Assembly (NCBI RefSeq): GCF_009707545.1
Contig: NZ_WLYK01000009.1
Coordinates: forward strand, 124,001 to 188,000
DNA from: Nakamurella alba
GTDB taxonomy: Bacteria > Actinomycetota > Actinomycetes > Mycobacteriales > Nakamurellaceae
Reading direction: 5' to 3'
DNA length: 64,000 bases
Of the stretch, positions 21,311 to 35,240 are shown piece after piece (position 1 is the stretch's first letter; every line of letters begins with the position of its first letter). Under the pieces are notes generated by a model, which did no database searches, had not been told where the DNA came from, and saw only the letters and a program-made list of their open reading frames with translations. Made by a program: the position numbers and the translations under genes.

Positions 21311-22105
21311 ATGAGCCGGAACGATCTGCAGGACCAGATCCGCGACCGTTACGCCGCAGCGGCTCTCGCCGTCTCGACCGATGCGACCGCGTCCTGCTGC
21401 GGCCCCACCGACGCCCTGGCCGCGATCGGCGGGAGCGGCGAGGCCGACATCTTCGGGGCCGCGATGTACTCGCCGGAGCAGGCGGCGGGGCTGCCGGAGG
21501 AGGCGGTGCTGGCCTCGCTCGGCTGCGGCAACCCGTTGGCCGTCGCCGAGATCCGAGAGGGTGAGAAGGTTCTCGACCTCGGGTCGGGCGGTGGTATCGA
21601 CGTGCTGCTGTCCGCCCGGCGGGTCGGTGCCACCGGGTTCGCCTACGGCCTGGACATGACCGACGAGATGCTGGAGCTTGCCCGCGCGAACGCAACCAAG
21701 GCCGGCGCCGTCAACGTCGAGTTCCTGAAGGGCCACATCGAGGCGATCCCGCTCGCCGACGCATCGGTCGACGTGGTGATCTCCAACTGCGTGATCAACC
21801 TGTCCACCGACAAGACCGCGGTGCTGACCGAGATGTTCCGGGTCCTCGTCCCCGGCGGCCGTATCGGCATCTCCGACGTCGTGGCCGAGGACCACCTGTC
21901 CGGGACCGAGCGCGCCGGCCGCGGCTCCTACGTCGGATGCATCGCCGGCGCGCTGTCCCGCGCCGAGTACGTCGCCGGGCTCACCGCAGCCGGGTTCGCC
22001 GACATCGAGGTCGTCTTCACGCACGAGGTCGCACCGGAGATGCACGGCGCGATCGTCCGGGCGGTCAAGCCCGACACCCTGACCCGGCCGGGGATCCCTT
22101 CGTGA
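21311..22105 (+). CDS. arsM: Arsenite S-adenosylmethionine methyltransferase
   Basis: A 264-residue class I SAM methyltransferase that converts As(III) to methylated arsenicals. The SAM-binding motif VLDLGSGGGIDVLLSA is at about 87-102. The cysteines expected for As(III) binding are all present: C29/C30 in SCCGPTDA, C72 in SLGCGNPL, C160 in ISNCVINLS and C210 in YVGCIAGAL. ATG 21311 has GGAAGG upstream. The stop overlaps the GTG of arsC (GTGA), so the two are translated together. Confidence 0.93.
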   Translation: MSRNDLQDQIRDRYAAAALAVSTDATASCCGPTDALAAIGGSGEADIFGAAMYSPEQAAGLPEEAVLASLGCGNPLAVAEIREGEKVLDLGSGGGIDVLLSARRVGATGFAYGLDMTDEMLELARANATKAGAVNVEFLKGHIEAIPLADASVDVVISNCVINLSTDKTAVLTEMFRVLVPGGRIGISDVVAEDHLSGTERAGRGSYVGCIAGALSRAEYVAGLTAAGFADIEVVFTHEVAPEMHGAIVRAVKPDTLTRPGIPS

Positions 22106-22590
22106 TCGATCGTGCAGCGGTCGACACGCCGTCCGTGCTCTTCGTCTGCGTGCACAACGCCGGCCGGTCCCAGATGGCCGCCGGTTTCCTCACCCAGCTG
22201 TCCGCCGGGGCCGTCGAGGTCCGGTCGGCGGGGTCGCTGCCGGCCGACCGCATCAATCCGGTCGCCGTCGCCGCGATGGCCGAGGTCGGCATCGACATCG
22301 CGACGCAGGTCCCGAAGGTCCTGACCGCCGAGGCGGTGCAGCAGTCCGACGTGGTGATCACCATGGGCTGCGGTGACGTGTGCCCGGTGTTCTCCGGCAC
22401 GCGTTACCTGGACTGGGATCTCGACGACCCGGCCGGACAGGACCTGCCGGCCGTCCGCCCGATCCGCGACGAGATCCGCCGCCGCGTCGAGGCTCTCCTC
22501 GACGAGCTGCTCCCCGCCCGATCCGGCGGGGAGCAGCTCACCAGCCGCGCTCGGCGAGCCGGTGCGGGACCGGGATGTCGGCGACGTTGA
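22102..22590 (+). CDS. arsC: Arsenate reductase, low-molecular-weight phosphatase type
   Basis: A 162-residue protein of the LMW-phosphatase-like ArsC family, which reduces arsenate to arsenite with thioredoxin or mycothiol/mycoredoxin. The P-loop CVHNAGRS is at 16-23 and the second redox region is [10 protein letters not shown]. Start GTG 22102 overlaps the arsM stop. The recognisable protein ends at about [12 protein letters not shown] (near 22519). The frame then runs on for about 24 basic residues through a strong hairpin and 53 bp into the 3' end of convergent pdxS, which looks like stop-codon loss. Providing arsenite for ArsM is the obvious joint role. Confidence 0.9.
22504..22539. terminator. 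Hairpin terminator between arsC and pdxS, inside the arsC tail
   Basis: Perfect 15-bp arms (22504-22518 and 22525-22539) around a 6-nt loop CGATCC. It ends at the pdxS stop codon (22538-22540) and lies within the annotated end of arsC. It probably terminates both convergent transcripts. Confidence 0.75.
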
Positions 22591-28815: not shown

Positions 28816-30024
28816 TCAGCTGCGGAGCGCCCCCTGCAACCCGTCCAGCAGCCGGTCCACGTCGGTGTCGTCGTTGTACGGCGCCAGCCCGATCCGCAGG
28901 CCGCCGTCGGCGCCGAGCCCGAGCCGGCGGGCCGGTTCGTAGGCATAGAACGAACCGGCCGGGGCCAGGACGTCCGCAGCCGCGAGGGCGCCGGACACCT
29001 CGCCGGCCGACCGCTGCGCGAAGGTGACCAGCAGGGTCGGGGTGCGCAGGGCGGCCCGGGAGTGGACGGTGACCTGGTCGCCGAGCGCCGCCAGGCCGTC
29101 CTCGATCCGGCCGCGCAGCCGCTCCTCGTGGTGCTCGAGCGCTGCGTAGGTGGCGGTGAGCCGGTCGGCACGAGATGCAGGTCCGGGGGTGAGGTCCGCC
29201 AGGTAGTCGATCGCGGCGGTGGCGCCGGCCAGCTGCTCGTAGGGCAGGGTGCCGAACTCGAACCGCTCCGGGATGGCGTCGGTGGAGGGGAGCAGCTTGT
29301 CCGGCCGCAGCTGCTCCAGCAGCGCCGGGTCGGCGGCCAGCATCCCGCAGTGCGGACCGAGGAACTTGTACGGGGAGCAGACGTAGAAGTCGGCGCCGAG
29401 GGCGGTGACGTCGATCCGCGCATGGGCGGTCAGGTGCACCCCGTCGACGAAGACCAGTGCGCCCGCGGCGTGTGCCAGGTCGGCGACCTGGCGCACCGGC
29501 GGCCGGGTGCCGATCAGGTTCGAGGCACCGGTGAGGGCCACCAGCCGGGTGCGCGCGGACAGCAGGCCCGCGACCTGGTCCGGGTCGATCTCGCCGGTGG
29601 CCGGGTCCAGGTCGATCCAGCGCAGGACCGCGCCGGTGCGCTCGGCGGTCTGCACCCACGGCCGCACGTTCGCGTCGTGGTCCAGCCGGCTGACCACGAT
29701 CTCGTCCTCCGGACCCCACTCACGGGACAGGTGCCGGGAGAAGTCGTAGGTGAGCTGGGTGGCGCTGCGCCCGTGCACGATGCCCCGCGGGTCCGCGCCG
29801 AGCAGATCCGCGCCGGCCGCGCGGAAGGCGGTCACCGCGTCGTCGGAGTTGCGCTCGGACAGCACCGCGCGGCCCCGGTTGGACAGCGGGCCGGTCAGCG
29901 CGGCGGCCACCGCCTCCCCCACCCGGCGCGGCGACTGGGTGCCACCGGGGCCGTCGAAGTGGGCGATACCCGATGCCAGGGAAGGGAAGTCGGCGCGGAT
30001 GGCGGCGACGTCCAGCGATGTCAT
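28816..30024 (-). CDS. Cysteine-desulfurase-like class V aminotransferase without the catalytic cysteine loop
   Basis: A 402-residue fold-type I PLP enzyme. N-terminal IAHFDGPGGTQSPRRV, PLSNRG, the PLP aspartate in LVFVDGVHLTAHARID and the Schiff-base lysine K220 in CSPYKFLGPHCG place it in the 'cysteine desulfurase-like' subfamily of class V aminotransferases. At the position where true desulfurases carry the persulfide Cys I read APAGSFYAYEPARRLG, with no Cys, so a desulfurase role is unlikely; lyase or epimerase chemistry is more credible. ATG 30024 has GAGGAG upstream. It is the last gene of the amidotransferase module (72-bp gap to the ATP-grasp gene). Confidence 0.82.
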   Translation of the reverse strand: MTSLDVAAIRADFPSLASGIAHFDGPGGTQSPRRVGEAVAAALTGPLSNRGRAVLSERNSDDAVTAFRAAGADLLGADPRGIVHGRSATQLTYDFSRHLSREWGPEDEIVVSRLDHDANVRPWVQTAERTGAVLRWIDLDPATGEIDPDQVAGLLSARTRLVALTGASNLIGTRPPVRQVADLAHAAGALVFVDGVHLTAHARIDVTALGADFYVCSPYKFLGPHCGMLAADPALLEQLRPDKLLPSTDAIPERFEFGTLPYEQLAGATAAIDYLADLTPGPASRADRLTATYAALEHHEERLRGRIEDGLAALGDQVTVHSRAALRTPTLLVTFAQRSAGEVSGALAAADVLAPAGSFYAYEPARRLGLGADGGLRIGLAPYNDDTDVDRLLDGLQGALRS

Positions 30025-30095
30025 GGTGGTCGTTCTCCTCAGGTCGGCACCGGGGACGTGACCCGGTGCCCGGACATCCTGTCGCACCGCCCCGG

Positions 30096-31559
30096 TCAGC
30101 CGGTGAACCAGGTGTCCTTCGAGCCGCCGCCCTGCGAGGAGTTGACCAGCAGGCCACCGTCGCCGAGCGCCACCCGGGACAGCCCGCCCGGCGCCATCCG
30201 GGTCTCCCGCCCGGACAACACGAACAACCTCAGGTCCACGTGCCGGGGCCGCAACGACCCGTCGATCACGGTGGGATGGGTGGAGAACCGGATCACCTCC
30301 TGGGCGATGAACCGCTCGGGGCGGGCCGCGACCTCGGACTCCACCTGCTCGATCTGCGCGGCGGTGAGTTCCGGCCCGATCCGGACCCCGTCGCCGCCGG
30401 ACCCGTCGACCGGTTTGACCACCAACGAGCCGAGCCGGCCGCGGACCGCGTCGTACTGGCCGGGTTCGGCCAGCACCCAGGTGCCGACGTCGGCGAGGGC
30501 CGGCTCCTCGCCGAGGTAGAACCGGATCATCGGCCCGACGAAGGCGTAGATCGCCTTGTCGTCGGCAACGCCGTTGCCCGGGGCGTTGGCCAGGGCCAGC
30601 GTGCCGCTGCGGCAGGCCTGCCGGACCAGTTCGCGGGCCGCGCCCGGCCCGAGCAGATCGTCGTGGCCGAATCGCCGGTAGAGCACGTCGATCCGGCTGA
30701 TCCCGCCCGGGCCGCGCACCGCCACGCCGTCGCCGTCCGGCAGCAGGTCGTCGAGAGCGACCACCGGCACGCCCATCCGTTCGGCCAGCGTGCGGTGCTC
30801 GTACCAGGCCGAATTGTCCGGGCCGTCGCTGAGCACCGCGACCTTCGGCGCCCGGTCGCCGGCCATCCCGGGCGGCGCGGCGTCCAGCAGCGCCCGGCGC
30901 AGCAGGTCGACCGCTCCGTCCGGCGGCTCCGGCCGGAGATCGCCGGCGTGCAGGTCCGGCAACGCCTGCGCGGCGCCGGCCCGGTTGGCCAGCACGTAGG
31001 CCAGGCCGGAGGGGACCTGCAGGTTGTCCTCCAGCACCACCCAGCGACCGTCCTCGCCGGTCAGCAGGTCGAACCCGGCCACTGTCGCCCGCGGCCGCCC
31101 GCCGGGCACGAGATCGGTTGCCTCCCGGCGGAACCCGGGCGCGCCGCGGACGAACCGCTCGGGGACCAAGCCGGCGGCGACGATCTCCGCCCGGGCCGGC
31201 GAGCCGTCGTCGTCGGTGCGGTACACGTCGTCGAGGAAGGCGTTGAGCGCCCGGGCGCGTTGGGTGACCCCGACCTCGAGCCGAGCCCGGTCCTCCGCGC
31301 CGATCAGCCGTGGCACCGGGTCCATCGGGAAGACCTGCTCGACCAGCCCGCCGGCCCCGCCGGTCGGGATCCGGAAGGTGACGCCCTGCTCGGCCCGGAT
31401 CCGGTCCAGGCGCTCCACGGCCGCGGTGAGGCCGGCGGACCCGTCTCGCTGCAGCACCGCCAGCACCTCCCGGTAGTCCGGGCGGACCATGCCGTCCGGT
31501 GCCACCGCCTCGTCGAGCGGTCCGGCGACATACCCTGCGATCGGGGGATTCTCAGCCAT
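30096..31559 (-). CDS. Circularly permuted ATP-grasp protein (DUF404/DUF407-like)
   Basis: A 487-residue member of the circularly permuted ATP-grasp family. I see RPDYREVL at the N-terminus, VLEDNLQVPSGLAYVLANR, DVLYRRFGHDDLL, LALANAPGNGVADDKAIYAFV, LVVKPVDGSGGDGV and the C-terminal LLVNSSQGGGSKDTW. These include the expected acidic and basic nucleotide-site residues. ATP-grasp enzymes join a carboxylate to an amine or thiol via acyl-phosphate. The usual partners of this family (alpha-E protein and transglutaminase-like protein) are absent; instead it overlaps an S9 peptidase gene by 8 nt. Substrates unknown. Confidence 0.88.
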   Translation of the reverse strand: MAENPPIAGYVAGPLDEAVAPDGMVRPDYREVLAVLQRDGSAGLTAAVERLDRIRAEQGVTFRIPTGGAGGLVEQVFPMDPVPRLIGAEDRARLEVGVTQRARALNAFLDDVYRTDDDGSPARAEIVAAGLVPERFVRGAPGFRREATDLVPGGRPRATVAGFDLLTGEDGRWVVLEDNLQVPSGLAYVLANRAGAAQALPDLHAGDLRPEPPDGAVDLLRRALLDAAPPGMAGDRAPKVAVLSDGPDNSAWYEHRTLAERMGVPVVALDDLLPDGDGVAVRGPGGISRIDVLYRRFGHDDLLGPGAARELVRQACRSGTLALANAPGNGVADDKAIYAFVGPMIRFYLGEEPALADVGTWVLAEPGQYDAVRGRLGSLVVKPVDGSGGDGVRIGPELTAAQIEQVESEVAARPERFIAQEVIRFSTHPTVIDGSLRPRHVDLRLFVLSGRETRMAPGGLSRVALGDGGLLVNSSQGGGSKDTWFTG

Positions 31560-33450
31560 GCGGCACCAGCCAGCGGACGAACCATCCGGTGACGGCGAGT
31601 GCCACCCGGATCCGGTGCTGCTCCCCCACCACGGTGTGGCCCTCGCCGGGCAGCAGCAGCAGCTCCGTCGGCACACCGGCCGCCCGCAGCGCCGCGTGCG
31701 CGCGCACCGACTCGCCGACCGGCACGTTGGTGTCGGCGGCGCCGTGCACGAGCAGGGTCGGTGCCCGTACCCGGTCCTGGTGGGTCAACGGCGAGATCGC
31801 CCGCAGCAGATCGGCATCCGCGCCGGGATCCCCGTACTCGGTGACGGACGCCGCGGCCATCCACGGCTCGGTCTCGGCGAAGAAGGACAGCAGGTCGGAC
31901 ATGCCCGCGTGGGTGACTGCCGCGGCGAACAGCTCCGGCCACCGGGACACCGCGGTGAGGGCGAGATACCCACCGTAGGACCAACCCTGGACGCCGATCC
32001 GGTCCGCGGACGCGAGTCCGGTCGACACCAGGTGCGCCACGGTGGCCGGCACGTCCTGGAACGAGTCGGGCCGGCGGGCGCCGTCGTCGGCGTCCAGGAA
32101 CCGCCGGCCGTACCCGCTGGAGCCGCGCACGTTCGGCGCGAACACCCCGATACCGGCAGCCGCCAGCGCCTGCGCCAGGATCGAGAACGCCGGCCGCTCC
32201 TGGCTTTCCGGCCCGCCGTGGAACGCCACGACCGCAGGTGCCGGCCGGCCGTCCTGGCCCGTACCGGCCGGCGGGTACCACCAGCCCTGCAGCGGTGTGC
32301 CGTCCGGCGCCCGGTAGTGGTGCAGCTCCGGGGGCACACCGGTCCCGGCCGGCAGCGGCGCCGGGCACATGCCGAGCCGGACCGCCGCCTCCGGGTCGGG
32401 CCCGAGCGGCACCCGGTACAGCGCACGGGGCGCGAGCGGCCCGGTCAGCTCGGCGATCAGCTCGGTGCCGTCCGGGGTGAGCGACCAGCCCGGCATGACC
32501 GGCTGCGGAAGGGCCACCCGGCGGTCTGTCCCGACATCTGCTGCCATCAGCTCGATCTCGTGGCAACCGTCCTGGTTCCAGACCACCAGCAGGCTGCCGT
32601 CGGCCCGCACCGCGTAGGCGTCGACGTCCGCGTCCGGGCGCTCCGCGAGCACGCTGAGCAGCCCCGGGCGGCCGTCGGCGTCCAGTGGGACCCGTGCCAG
32701 CACGATCCGTTCGGAGACGGCGTGGGTGCGCAGGTACACCGCGCGGCCGTCGGTCGAGAAGCGGCCGTCCTCGCCGATGTCGCTGCCGTCGGCAACCGGG
32801 AAGTCGGCGGAGAGCAGCCGGACCGGCGCGGCGTCGCCGGCCAGATCCACCAGGTGCAGCACCCGGCGGCCCCGCGGCCCGATCCGTACCAGCAGTCGCC
32901 CGTCGCGCACCCCGGTGACCGTGCAGAAGCCGCGCCCGACCGTGCCCGGCACGACCGTGATCTCACCGGTGCGGGCGTCCACCACCTGGACAGCGGCGTG
33001 CGGCGACCGACCGTCGGCGAGAGAGTGGACGTAACAACAGGTCCCGGCGATCCAGCCGCCGGCGAAGACGGTTTCCCGCTCGCTGCCGCCGGCCAACCGC
33101 CGCCGGTCCGTCCCGTCCGGGCGGACGACGTGCAACTCGGCCCGGATCGAGCCGCCGGGCGAGACCAGGTAGGCCAGGTACGCACCGTCCGGGGACCAGG
33201 CGACGGACACGACCTCCTGCTCCGGACCGGAGATCTCACGTGCCGGGCGACTGCCGTCGACCGGGCCGATCTCCAGCCGCGGCAACCCGCTGCGGTCGGT
33301 GACGAAGGCGACCTGTGCGCCGTCCGGCGACACCGCCGGGCACCACGCGCCGGCGACGGCGGCGAAGGCGGTGGCAGCAGCCACCCGGTCCGGTGCGCCG
33401 GGGGTTGCGGCGGTGGCGGAGGGCCGCAGCAGCCGTGAAGGCGGGCTCAC
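31552..33450 (-). CDS. S9 family prolyl-oligopeptidase/acylaminoacyl-peptidase
   Basis: A 632-residue serine peptidase: an N-terminal beta-propeller (about 30-370, with TolB-like repeats such as CPAVSPDGAQVAFVTDRSG and VAWSPDGAYLAYL) and a C-terminal alpha/beta-hydrolase domain. The triad is visible as S491 (GWSYGGY), D573 (HGAADTNVP) and H605 (GEGHTV). No signal peptide, so it should act in the cytoplasm on small peptides or acyl-peptides. GTG 33450 overlaps the asnB stop by 4 nt, and its end overlaps the ATP-grasp start by 8 nt; the three genes are tightly coupled. Confidence 0.92.
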   Translation of the reverse strand: MSPPSRLLRPSATAATPGAPDRVAAATAFAAVAGAWCPAVSPDGAQVAFVTDRSGLPRLEIGPVDGSRPAREISGPEQEVVSVAWSPDGAYLAYLVSPGGSIRAELHVVRPDGTDRRRLAGGSERETVFAGGWIAGTCCYVHSLADGRSPHAAVQVVDARTGEITVVPGTVGRGFCTVTGVRDGRLLVRIGPRGRRVLHLVDLAGDAAPVRLLSADFPVADGSDIGEDGRFSTDGRAVYLRTHAVSERIVLARVPLDADGRPGLLSVLAERPDADVDAYAVRADGSLLVVWNQDGCHEIELMAADVGTDRRVALPQPVMPGWSLTPDGTELIAELTGPLAPRALYRVPLGPDPEAAVRLGMCPAPLPAGTGVPPELHHYRAPDGTPLQGWWYPPAGTGQDGRPAPAVVAFHGGPESQERPAFSILAQALAAAGIGVFAPNVRGSSGYGRRFLDADDGARRPDSFQDVPATVAHLVSTGLASADRIGVQGWSYGGYLALTAVSRWPELFAAAVTHAGMSDLLSFFAETEPWMAAASVTEYGDPGADADLLRAISPLTHQDRVRAPTLLVHGAADTNVPVGESVRAHAALRAAGVPTELLLLPGEGHTVVGEQHRIRVALAVTGWFVRWLVPHG

Positions 33451-35240
33451 CGGATGCCGTGCCGCTGCAACCACATCTCGAGCAGGGCGACCTGCCAGAG
33501 CTGGTTGGAGCCGAGCGTGGTGCGGTGGGTGTTCGGCGCGGCCAGCAGCCGGTCCAGGTACTCCGGGCGGAACAGGCTGCGCTCCTTGGCATCCGCCGCG
33601 CGCAGCGTGTCGCGGACCAGGTCCAGGTACTGCCCCTGCAGGCTGATGATGGCGGGCACCGGGAAGTGGCCCTTGGTGCGGTCGATGACGGCGGACGGCA
33701 CCACCGCGCGGGCCGCCTCCTTCAGCACACCCTTGCCGCTCTGCGCGAGCTTGAGCTCCGGCGGCACGGCGGCGGCCAGCTCGACGAACTCGTGGTCCAG
33801 GAACGGGGTGCGCGCCTCCAGACCCCAGGCCATGGTCATGTTGTCGACCCGCTTCACCGGGTCGTCCACCAGCATGATCAGCGAGTCCAGCCGCAGGGCC
33901 CGGTCCAGCGCACCGTCCGCACCGGGCGCCGAGAAGTGTTCCCGCACCAGGGTTCCGGCATGGTCGTCGGCCAGCATCCGGTCCGGGTGCAGGATCCCGG
34001 CCAGCTCGGCGTGCGGCCGGTCGACGAAGTGCGCGGAGTAGGTCGCCACGGCCCGGTCGACGTCGGCGTCCGGAACACCGGCCAGCGGCGGGTACCACTC
34101 GTACCCGGCCAGCACCTCGTCGGCGCCCTGACCGGACTGCACCACCTTGACGTGCTGCGAGACCTGTTGCGACAGCAGGTAGAACGCGACGCAGTCGTGG
34201 CTGACCATGGGCTCGCTCATGGCACCGAGCGCGCCGTCGATGCCGGCCAGCACGCTGGAGGACGGGATCATCAGCTGGTGATGGTCGGTGCCGAACCGCT
34301 GGGCGACGATGTCGGAGTACTCGAACTCGTCGCCAACCAGATCGCCGACCCGCTCGAAGCCGATGCTGAAGGTCTTCAGATCGCGCTGGCCCTCCTCGGC
34401 CAGCAGCCCGACGATCAGGCTCGAGTCGATGCCGCCGGAGAGCAGCACCCCGACCGGAACGTCCGCCACCATCCGCCGGCGGACCGCGGTGCGCAGGCTG
34501 TCCAGCACCAGGTCCTGCCAGTCGGTTGCGGACAGCCCGGTGAACCGCTCCTGACGGGCGTGCGACGGGGTCCAGTAGAGGGTGTCCGTCTCCGCCCCGT
34601 CCGGCTCCACGACCCGGACGGTGGCCGGCGGCAGTTTGCGGATCCCGTTCAGGATGGTCCGCGGCGCCGGGACGACCGCGTGGAAGGACATGTAGTACTG
34701 CAGCGCGACCGGGTCGATCGAGGTGTCGACGTCACCACCGGCGAGCAGCGCCGGCAGTGTCGAGGCGAACCGCAGGAACTGCGAGGTGCGGTGCAGGTAC
34801 AGCGGTTTGATGCCGAGCCGGTCCCGGGCCAGCACCAGCCGTCCGGAGCCGCGCTCCAGCACGGCCAGCGCGAACATGCCCTTGAAGTGCTGGACGAAGT
34901 CGGTGCCCCAGCGGTGGTAGGCCTTGAGCACCACCTCGGTGTCGGAGTGCGAGAAGAAGCGGTAGCCGTACCCGGTCAGCTCCTCGCGCAGCTCGCGGTA
35001 GTTGTAGATGCAGCCGTTGAACACCGCGGTCAGGCCGAGCTCGGCGTCGATCATCGGCTGGGCGCCGGCGTCGGTCAGGTCGATGATCGACAGCCGTCGG
35101 TGCGCCAGCGCGACCGGCCCGTTGGTCCACAGGCCCTGGCCGTCCGGGCCGCGCGGGTGCTGGGTGCAGCTGATCGCGTCCACCGCGGTCACGTCGGCGG
35201 CGGACCCGTCGAACCGGATCTCGCCGCTCAGCCCGCACAT
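33447..35240 (-). CDS. Asparagine-synthetase-like amidotransferase, N-acetylglutaminylglutamine amidotransferase type
   Basis: A 597-residue two-domain amidotransferase. The glutaminase domain has the Cys2 nucleophile (MCGLSGEIRFDG) and the usual RGPDGQG and FNGCIYNYRELREEL. The synthetase domain has the pyrophosphate loop SGGIDSS at 268-274. The stretches FFSHSDTEVVLKAYHRWG and SFHAVVPAPRTILNGIRKLPP closely recall the amidotransferase of the N-acetylglutaminylglutamine amide (NAGGN) osmolyte pathway rather than ordinary AsnB (from memory of the family). It is the first gene of a coupled run with an S9 peptidase and an ATP-grasp enzyme. A palindrome isolates it from the HIT gene. Confidence 0.87.
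   Translation of the reverse strand: MCGLSGEIRFDGSAADVTAVDAISCTQHPRGPDGQGLWTNGPVALAHRRLSIIDLTDAGAQPMIDAELGLTAVFNGCIYNYRELREELTGYGYRFFSHSDTEVVLKAYHRWGTDFVQHFKGMFALAVLERGSGRLVLARDRLGIKPLYLHRTSQFLRFASTLPALLAGGDVDTSIDPVALQYYMSFHAVVPAPRTILNGIRKLPPATVRVVEPDGAETDTLYWTPSHARQERFTGLSATDWQDLVLDSLRTAVRRRMVADVPVGVLLSGGIDSSLIVGLLAEEGQRDLKTFSIGFERVGDLVGDEFEYSDIVAQRFGTDHHQLMIPSSSVLAGIDGALGAMSEPMVSHDCVAFYLLSQQVSQHVKVVQSGQGADEVLAGYEWYPPLAGVPDADVDRAVATYSAHFVDRPHAELAGILHPDRMLADDHAGTLVREHFSAPGADGALDRALRLDSLIMLVDDPVKRVDNMTMAWGLEARTPFLDHEFVELAAAVPPELKLAQSGKGVLKEAARAVVPSAVIDRTKGHFPVPAIISLQGQYLDLVRDTLRAADAKERSLFRPEYLDRLLAAPNTHRTTLGSNQLWQVALLEMWLQRHGIR

Follow-up and report, generated by a model that had tools for sequence, protein, structure and literature searches.

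Locus organization

The stretch of the genome of the soil actinobacterium Nakamurella alba analyzed here (contig NZ_WLYK01000009.1, positions 124,001 to 188,000; 64,000 nucleotides, below referred to as the window) carries on its minus strand an overlapping three-gene operon, inserted between HIT and pgsA, that encodes an amidotransferase of the N-acetylglutaminylglutamine amide (NAGGN) type (AsnO), an S9 peptidase (S9) and a circularly permuted ATP-grasp ligase (CP). The genes and their junctions, together with a neighboring pyridoxal phosphate (PLP) enzyme, are the following.

33447..35240, minus strand: AsnO-type (NAGGN-type) glutamine-dependent amidotransferase, 597 aa, Cys2 present (TIGR03104, TIGR01536)
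33447..33450, minus strand: start/stop overlap of AsnO and S9, 4 nt (GTGA; sequence)
31552..33450, minus strand: S9 peptidase (beta-propeller plus alpha/beta hydrolase), 632 aa (PF00326)
31552..31559, minus strand: overlap of S9 and CP, 8 nt (sequence)
30096..31559, minus strand: circularly permuted ATP-grasp type 2 ligase (CP), 487 aa, without a glutamate-cysteine ligase family 2 (GCS2) domain (PF14403)
28816..30024, minus strand: class V PLP enzyme, 402 aa, a neighbor judged to lie outside the module (TIGR01976)

In the window sequence, S9 starts with GTG at 33450, CP with ATG at 31559 and, after a gap of 71 nt, the PLP gene with ATG at 30024. An earlier note on this DNA had described four genes on one strand, the first three coupled by overlaps of 4 and 8 nt, and this is indeed what the sequence contains; the families it had named were likewise recovered by Pfam (Asn_synthase plus GATase, Peptidase_S9, CP_ATPgrasp_2 and Aminotran_5). 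It was also right that the block breaks the thrS-HIT-pgsA order: pgsA directly follows HIT in 13 of the 16 other Nakamurella genomes, where the three genes are contiguous with a HIT-to-pgsA spacing of 10 to 243 bases, so that the module and PLP gene within this insertion were found solely in the window genome among the 17. The remaining three genomes (G002, G012 and G013) have no pgsA within the 1.5-kb flank of HIT, and no AsnO there either. The G+C content of the module (73.5%) and of the PLP gene (74.6%) is near that of the flanks (71.1% on the thrS-HIT side and 74.0% on the pgsA side).

With the known NAGGN trio asnO-ngg-M42 (TIGR03104/TIGR03103/TIGR03106; Sinorhizobium meliloti, Pseudomonas aeruginosa PA3459-PA3461), the operon has in common the amidotransferase family, an adjoining ligase and, in some loci, a peptidase. 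However, the window ligase is a circularly permuted ATP-grasp protein without a GNAT domain, and the peptidase belongs to S9 instead of M42.

Recurrence of the module

We compared 110 AsnO loci, consisting of 30 matches to TIGR03104 above its cut-off in 61 genomes (the window's included) and 80 loci from named genomes, the latter being the best 80 of at least 580 relatives and therefore a sample biased to close relatives. Regions of 20 kb round AsnO (two of them slightly shorter) were used, along with two Ngg-only regions (L093 and L094); neighbors were counted within 8 kb of AsnO, and two of the loci (L072 and L127) come from one genome. Sorted by ligase, 40 loci have Ngg, 37 have GCS2 plus CP, 13 have CP only, 12 have GCS2 only and 8 have neither, and none of the 110 combines Ngg with a CP or GCS2 gene of the same orientation. 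Since CP and/or GCS2 recur with AsnO in 62 of the 110 loci, spread over eleven named families, the link exceeds what chance would give. The earlier note had placed a different ligase and a different peptidase where the trio has Ngg and M42, and both halves of that claim are borne out: Ngg is absent from all 62 of these loci, and S9 is near 56 of them.

Gene order varies. A GCS2-CP fusion followed by AsnO and S9 is found in many families; GCS2-AsnO-S9 occurs in Streptomyces, Microbispora and Nonomuraea (for Streptomyces, no search was made for CP elsewhere in the genome); AsnO-S9-GCS2-CP is found in G004 and G010, AsnO-CP in G012, and the window's own order, AsnO-S9-CP, in other Nakamurella and some Geodermatophilaceae. 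When genes within five of AsnO were clustered at loci L064 to L175 in search of a wider conserved operon, recurrence beyond the core proved thin or local: by eye, a transporter-like gene is present in 10 CP loci, all of them in Geodermatophilaceae and recognized by synteny, and a kinase-like gene in 5 GCS2-CP loci as well as 5 Ngg loci.

Several loci deserve separate mention. At two loci with neither ligase, L112 and L170, only 2.1 and 0.2 kb of sequence precede AsnO, so a ligase could have been missed. In three f15 genomes (L081 of G051, L082 of G042 and L083 of G059), AsnO lacks a same-strand ligase and an opposite-strand GCS2 lies 0.03 to 1.8 kb away; G042 and G059 also hold an Ngg-AsnO pair, and G051 has no Ngg above the cut-off. 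Two Kocuria loci (L144 and L145) have no match to Ngg, CP, GCS2 or S9 within 8 kb of AsnO. Finally, L132, which comes from a Rubrobacteraceae metagenome-assembled genome and falls in the CP-only class, carries a 439-aa gene with, by eye, a GCS2-like start, followed in a row by CP and AsnO.

The peptidases sort with the ligases, albeit imperfectly. S9 was not found near AsnO at any of the 40 Ngg loci, but it is present at 3 of the 8 loci with neither ligase. M42 lies close to AsnO at 8 of these 40 and at no locus of any other class, including the 62 CP/GCS2 loci. As it is missing from 32 Ngg loci, M42 is not a strict criterion for the NAGGN trio. The CP/GCS2 loci without S9 are L066, L103, L129, L132, L143 and L173, and the L129 sequence ends 0.2 kb past AsnO. 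The window S9 scores 167.9 bits against PF00326, above the cut-off, and has a Ser-Asp-His triad (S491, D573 and H605) that is aligned in 73 of 74 homologues; the one exception, L141, is a shortened frame with 499 aa. Its nearest solved chain is 5l8s, deposited as "Amino acyl peptidase" (215.6 bits). It shares nearly full-length similarity and the triad with the acylaminoacyl peptidases of family S9, from which it differs in being genetically tied to AsnO.

The same survey sets the PLP enzyme (TIGR01976, 425 bits) apart. It is near AsnO at 1 of the 110 loci, namely, the window's own, and its orthologues in 12 of the 16 other Nakamurella genomes, five of which lack AsnO above the cut-off, are never beside the module. 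The PLP enzyme is a bystander, and we rejected the four-gene unit, in which it had been counted as an added member. Of the predicted co-occurrence of four families, what stands is the wide association of AsnO, CP and/or GCS2, and S9.

AsnO family and phylogeny

The window AsnO scores 955 bits against TIGR03104 (curated cut-off, 570.1) and 406 bits against the asparagine synthase model TIGR01536, which also exceeds that model's own cut-off of 267; it is 58 to 77% identical to AsnO at the 109 other loci. From the two scores, we rejected a plain AsnB or asparagine synthetase, in agreement with the NAGGN-type assignment made earlier.

A quick tree of 120 AsnO rows plus 2 outgroup rows, with support from the SH-like approximate likelihood ratio test only, covers 39 of the 40 Ngg loci (L084 was removed by trimming). 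All CP/GCS2 rows except L132, together with five rows with neither ligase, form one group (77 rows, support 99), outside which the Ngg rows fall; a smaller tree of 30 rows had left the unity of the CP-linked rows unresolved. Within the group, the window type, the Geodermatophilaceae CP rows and G004/G010 make up a subgroup (21 rows, support 99), and the single-ligase forms would be derived by loss. L132 was placed among the Ngg-linked rows.

When 39 Ngg-linked rows were compared with 72 other rows, loci with neither ligase being excluded and L132 being assigned to no class, only two positions were class-fixed at the 90% level (L119F and L573R), and 212 positions were at least 95% invariant over the rows compared. 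Therefore, the acceptor of AsnO is probably the same, or nearly so, in both classes, judging from these alignments; on average, AsnO of the Ngg class and AsnO of the CP class share 65% identity.

CP ligase and its GCS2 partner

CP matches PF14403 (CP_ATPgrasp_2) over the entire profile (positions 1 to 374 of 374, 368.8 bits) and has one solved relative, 3n6x (482 bits with profile A2). The full-length domain match and the conserved letters are shared with other type 2 proteins of this family; the window type differs in being tied to AsnO, whether stand-alone or, elsewhere, fused to GCS2. Nine letters (E177, N179, N249, K335, K382, R444, N473, S474 and G477), all present in the window copy, are probably catalytic, given their conservation. 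Neither the window genome (G000) nor the 16 other genomes of the genus contain a match to TIGR03103 (Ngg) above the cut-off.

The composition of the module given in the earlier note thus holds with respect to the CP ligase, but it was incomplete: elsewhere, the module often adds a GCS2 ligase domain, which is missing from the window copy. Since G006 has no GCS2 match at an E value of 1e-10 and the window genome has only a 40% relative on another contig, we rejected GCS2 as an obligatory partner of the CP-only form. In four genomes (G070, G075, G094 and G099), a fused GCS2-CP with its own AsnO coexists with a complete Ngg-AsnO pair, S9 following AsnO in two of them (G075 and G099). These fusions keep eight of the nine CP letters, with N249 replaced by S; G027 has D at this position, so that N249 is not universal in the fused type. 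Because it persists beside complete Ngg-AsnO pairs, the GCS2-CP form probably does not duplicate Ngg, and its product is probably a different one.

Further CP ATP-grasp matches (43 to 46%) were observed in long open frames away from AsnO in seven genomes (G061:C23, G066:C22, G064:C12, G079:C10, G093:C1, G102:C4 and G111:C8).

Loss of CP letters in Ngg-bearing Geodermatophilaceae

Among 57 genomes of the sister family Geodermatophilaceae, Ngg is found above the cut-off in 33 and AsnO in 45, and a stand-alone CP (at least 55% identity to the G043 CP) is present in 35, one copy (G113) being a fragment that was excluded from the letter reading. Thirteen genomes have stand-alone CP but no Ngg, and all nine letters are intact in 12 of them; the exception, G108, keeps seven and has neither AsnO above the cut-off nor an S9 adjoining CP. 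In Ngg-bearing genomes, CP retains at most three of the nine letters in all 21 copies read, at least six having been lost. As a control, a CP paralogue (43 to 44%) located away from AsnO keeps 9/9 letters in 12/12 Ngg-bearing genomes checked.

The position of AsnO differs among these genomes. In g26 (Modestobacter), the Ngg-bearing G052, G060, G081 and G088 have a single AsnO each, at the CP site, with Ngg located elsewhere. In eight g16/g38 genomes (G031, G075, G084, G090, G095, G099, G105 and G109), AsnO adjoins Ngg, and the matching old site contains S9 and a changed CP without AsnO; G075 and G099 have the additional AsnO with fused GCS2-CP. Because some genomes have kept AsnO at the CP site and others beside Ngg, the two copies look interchangeable. 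On the S9 tree, the Ngg/CP swap comes down to two pairs that are independent of each other, and each of them changes in the direction expected.

M42 is found above the cut-off in 5 of the 57 genomes, all with Ngg and none with stand-alone CP; as all five belong to one lineage (genus g33), the pattern represents one event. Another six Ngg genomes lack both M42 above the cut-off and stand-alone CP. In genus g33, second, partial Ngg matches exist besides the full Ngg (G064:C7, profile positions 1 to 314; G093:C1, 1 to 402; and G111:C17, 1 to 315 of 547). The letter-poor CP copies beside a triad-intact S9 at L213 to L220 (g16 and g38) and at L079, L080, L209 and L210 (g26) are candidate pseudoenzyme partners.

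Proposed pathway and alternatives

We propose that AsnO-S9-CP is an alternative NAGGN-type pathway in which CP takes the place of Ngg and S9 recycles the product, and we estimate the probability of this reading at roughly 0.6. CP, a ligase unrelated to Ngg, would spend ATP on coupling two glutamine units, the first of them probably N-capped, after which AsnO would transfer an amide from free glutamine to the C-terminal carboxylate. S9, being of the acylaminoacyl-peptidase kind, would hydrolyze the capped dipeptide once it is superfluous, in the place that M42 has in the known trio. The product would be NAGGN or its close functional equivalent, most likely an osmolyte. What the sequences show directly is the gene order, the families, their recurrence, the lack of Ngg at these loci and the disappearance of conserved CP letters from genomes that retain Ngg; all of the reactions, the N-cap and the osmotic role are inferred.

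Several points weigh against this proposal. Nothing local matches the acetyltransferase half of Ngg, as no GNAT domain was found among the window genes given to Pfam (AsnO, S9, CP, PLP, HIT, pgsA and the acyltransferase; no search for acetyltransferases was made among neighbors of the module outside the window). The two independent pairs supporting the swap are suggestive, not significant, since a sign test on two pairs cannot reach significance, and the redundancy between Ngg and CP may be physiological rather than chemical. The case for an exchange of peptidases is weak, given that M42 is missing within 8 kb from 32 of the 40 Ngg loci and S9 from 6 of the 62 CP/GCS2 loci and that all five M42 genomes are of one genus. 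Moreover, the changed CP is still under constraint, with a ratio of nonsynonymous to synonymous substitution rates of 0.24 to 0.46 (six overlapping pairs) compared to 0.27 to 0.31 for intact CP (three pairs), and it stays beside an S9 with an intact triad, which a simple ligase model leaves unexplained; because the two remain together and CP remains constrained after the letters are lost, a further role of CP seems likely. For this operon, we found no data on metabolites, expression or enzyme activity.

The module could instead make a different amidated peptide, for instance, an amide of the gamma-glutamyl-glutamine type, whose N-terminal part would be determined by CP (together with GCS2 at loci that have it); Ngg and CP would then be exchangeable only physiologically. 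The presence of GCS2 with CP in 37 of the 110 loci, the fusions maintained with 8/9 letters and their own AsnO beside Ngg-AsnO in G070, G075, G094 and G099, and the lack of GNAT among the window genes searched would all fit such a product. We nevertheless consider it less probable than the NAGGN-type pathway, as only two class-fixed differences separate the AsnO classes, the CP-only form does without GCS2 (G006 has no match at an E value of 1e-10) and the sole AsnO in four Ngg-bearing Modestobacter genomes is the CP-site copy. Much less probable still is a peptide-tagging or redox-thiol system, in which a gamma-Glu-Cys-type amide rather than an osmolyte would be formed. A peptide-tagging role has reportedly been proposed for other CP ATP-grasp clusters, and membership in the GCS2 family would speak for such a system; however, AsnO is conserved with the Ngg-linked enzymes, the EgtA model gives only 26.6 bits for the G010 GCS2 (cut-off, 370.8) and the window copy has no GCS2 at all. 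That AsnO is an ordinary asparagine synthetase with incidental neighbors, as its common GATase and Asn_synthase folds and its TIGR01536 score might suggest, is very improbable in view of the 955 bits to TIGR03104, the linkage to CP and/or GCS2 in 62 loci and a separate Asn_synthase gene on contig C18 of the window genome (361.5 bits), which reaches only 270.6 bits against TIGR03104.

The alternative NAGGN-type pathway can be combined with these observations in a more specific and more tentative scheme, to which we give slightly less than even odds: Actinobacteria would have at least two unrecognized ways of feeding the NAGGN amidotransferase, in that CP alone would replace Ngg and the two-ligase GCS2-CP enzyme would make a second, undescribed C-terminally amidated peptide, and the dead CP of g16/g38 would be a pseudoenzyme partner of S9. 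The two-ligase enzyme occurs in Pseudonocardia, Frankia, Micromonosporaceae, Microbacteriaceae and others; in Streptomyces, only GCS2 is found beside AsnO. The suggestion that the locus makes a compound not yet described would fit the GCS2-CP form better, as the CP-only form looks redundant with Ngg, and its product may simply be NAGGN.

Relation to published work

A cluster named asnO-ngg in Casuarina-associated Frankia has an AsnO more than 60% identical to others and a dipeptidase in between, and its "Ngg" is less than 15% identical to known Ngg, according to PMC5563000. The likeness to our module lies in AsnO with an adjoining dipeptidase; the four Frankia/Pseudofrankia loci examined here, from other strains, have GCS2-CP without Ngg. 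The NAGGN trio and its salt phenotype are described in Pseudomonas (PMC8070244), NAGGN is made by a Micromonospora (PMC8146288), and two proteins attributed to NAGGN synthesis are up 2.2- and 1.5-fold in Frankia alni under polyethylene glycol (PMC5768760); in the corresponding excerpts, PMC10513789 concerns a different compound and PMC2588565 does not mention asparagine synthetase. The AsnO-S9-CP module is not described in the passages considered from these papers, and no title or abstract opening among the matches listed for the full-text literature describes AsnO in combination with a CP ATP-grasp, GCS2 and S9.

Elsewhere in the window, at positions 21311 to 22590, lie two genes that by eye resemble an arsenite methyltransferase and an arsenate-reductase-type phosphatase.

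Implications

Circularly permuted ATP-grasp ligases are widespread and mostly without a known function, and the pathway proposed here, if true, would provide a testable one. It would also predict amidated glutamine peptides in actinobacterial groups that appear to lack them when genomes are searched for Ngg. The decay of CP in genomes that retain Ngg amounts to a natural gene-replacement experiment. In several families, the GCS2-CP form suggests a second amidated peptide; Streptomyces has a GCS2-only form.

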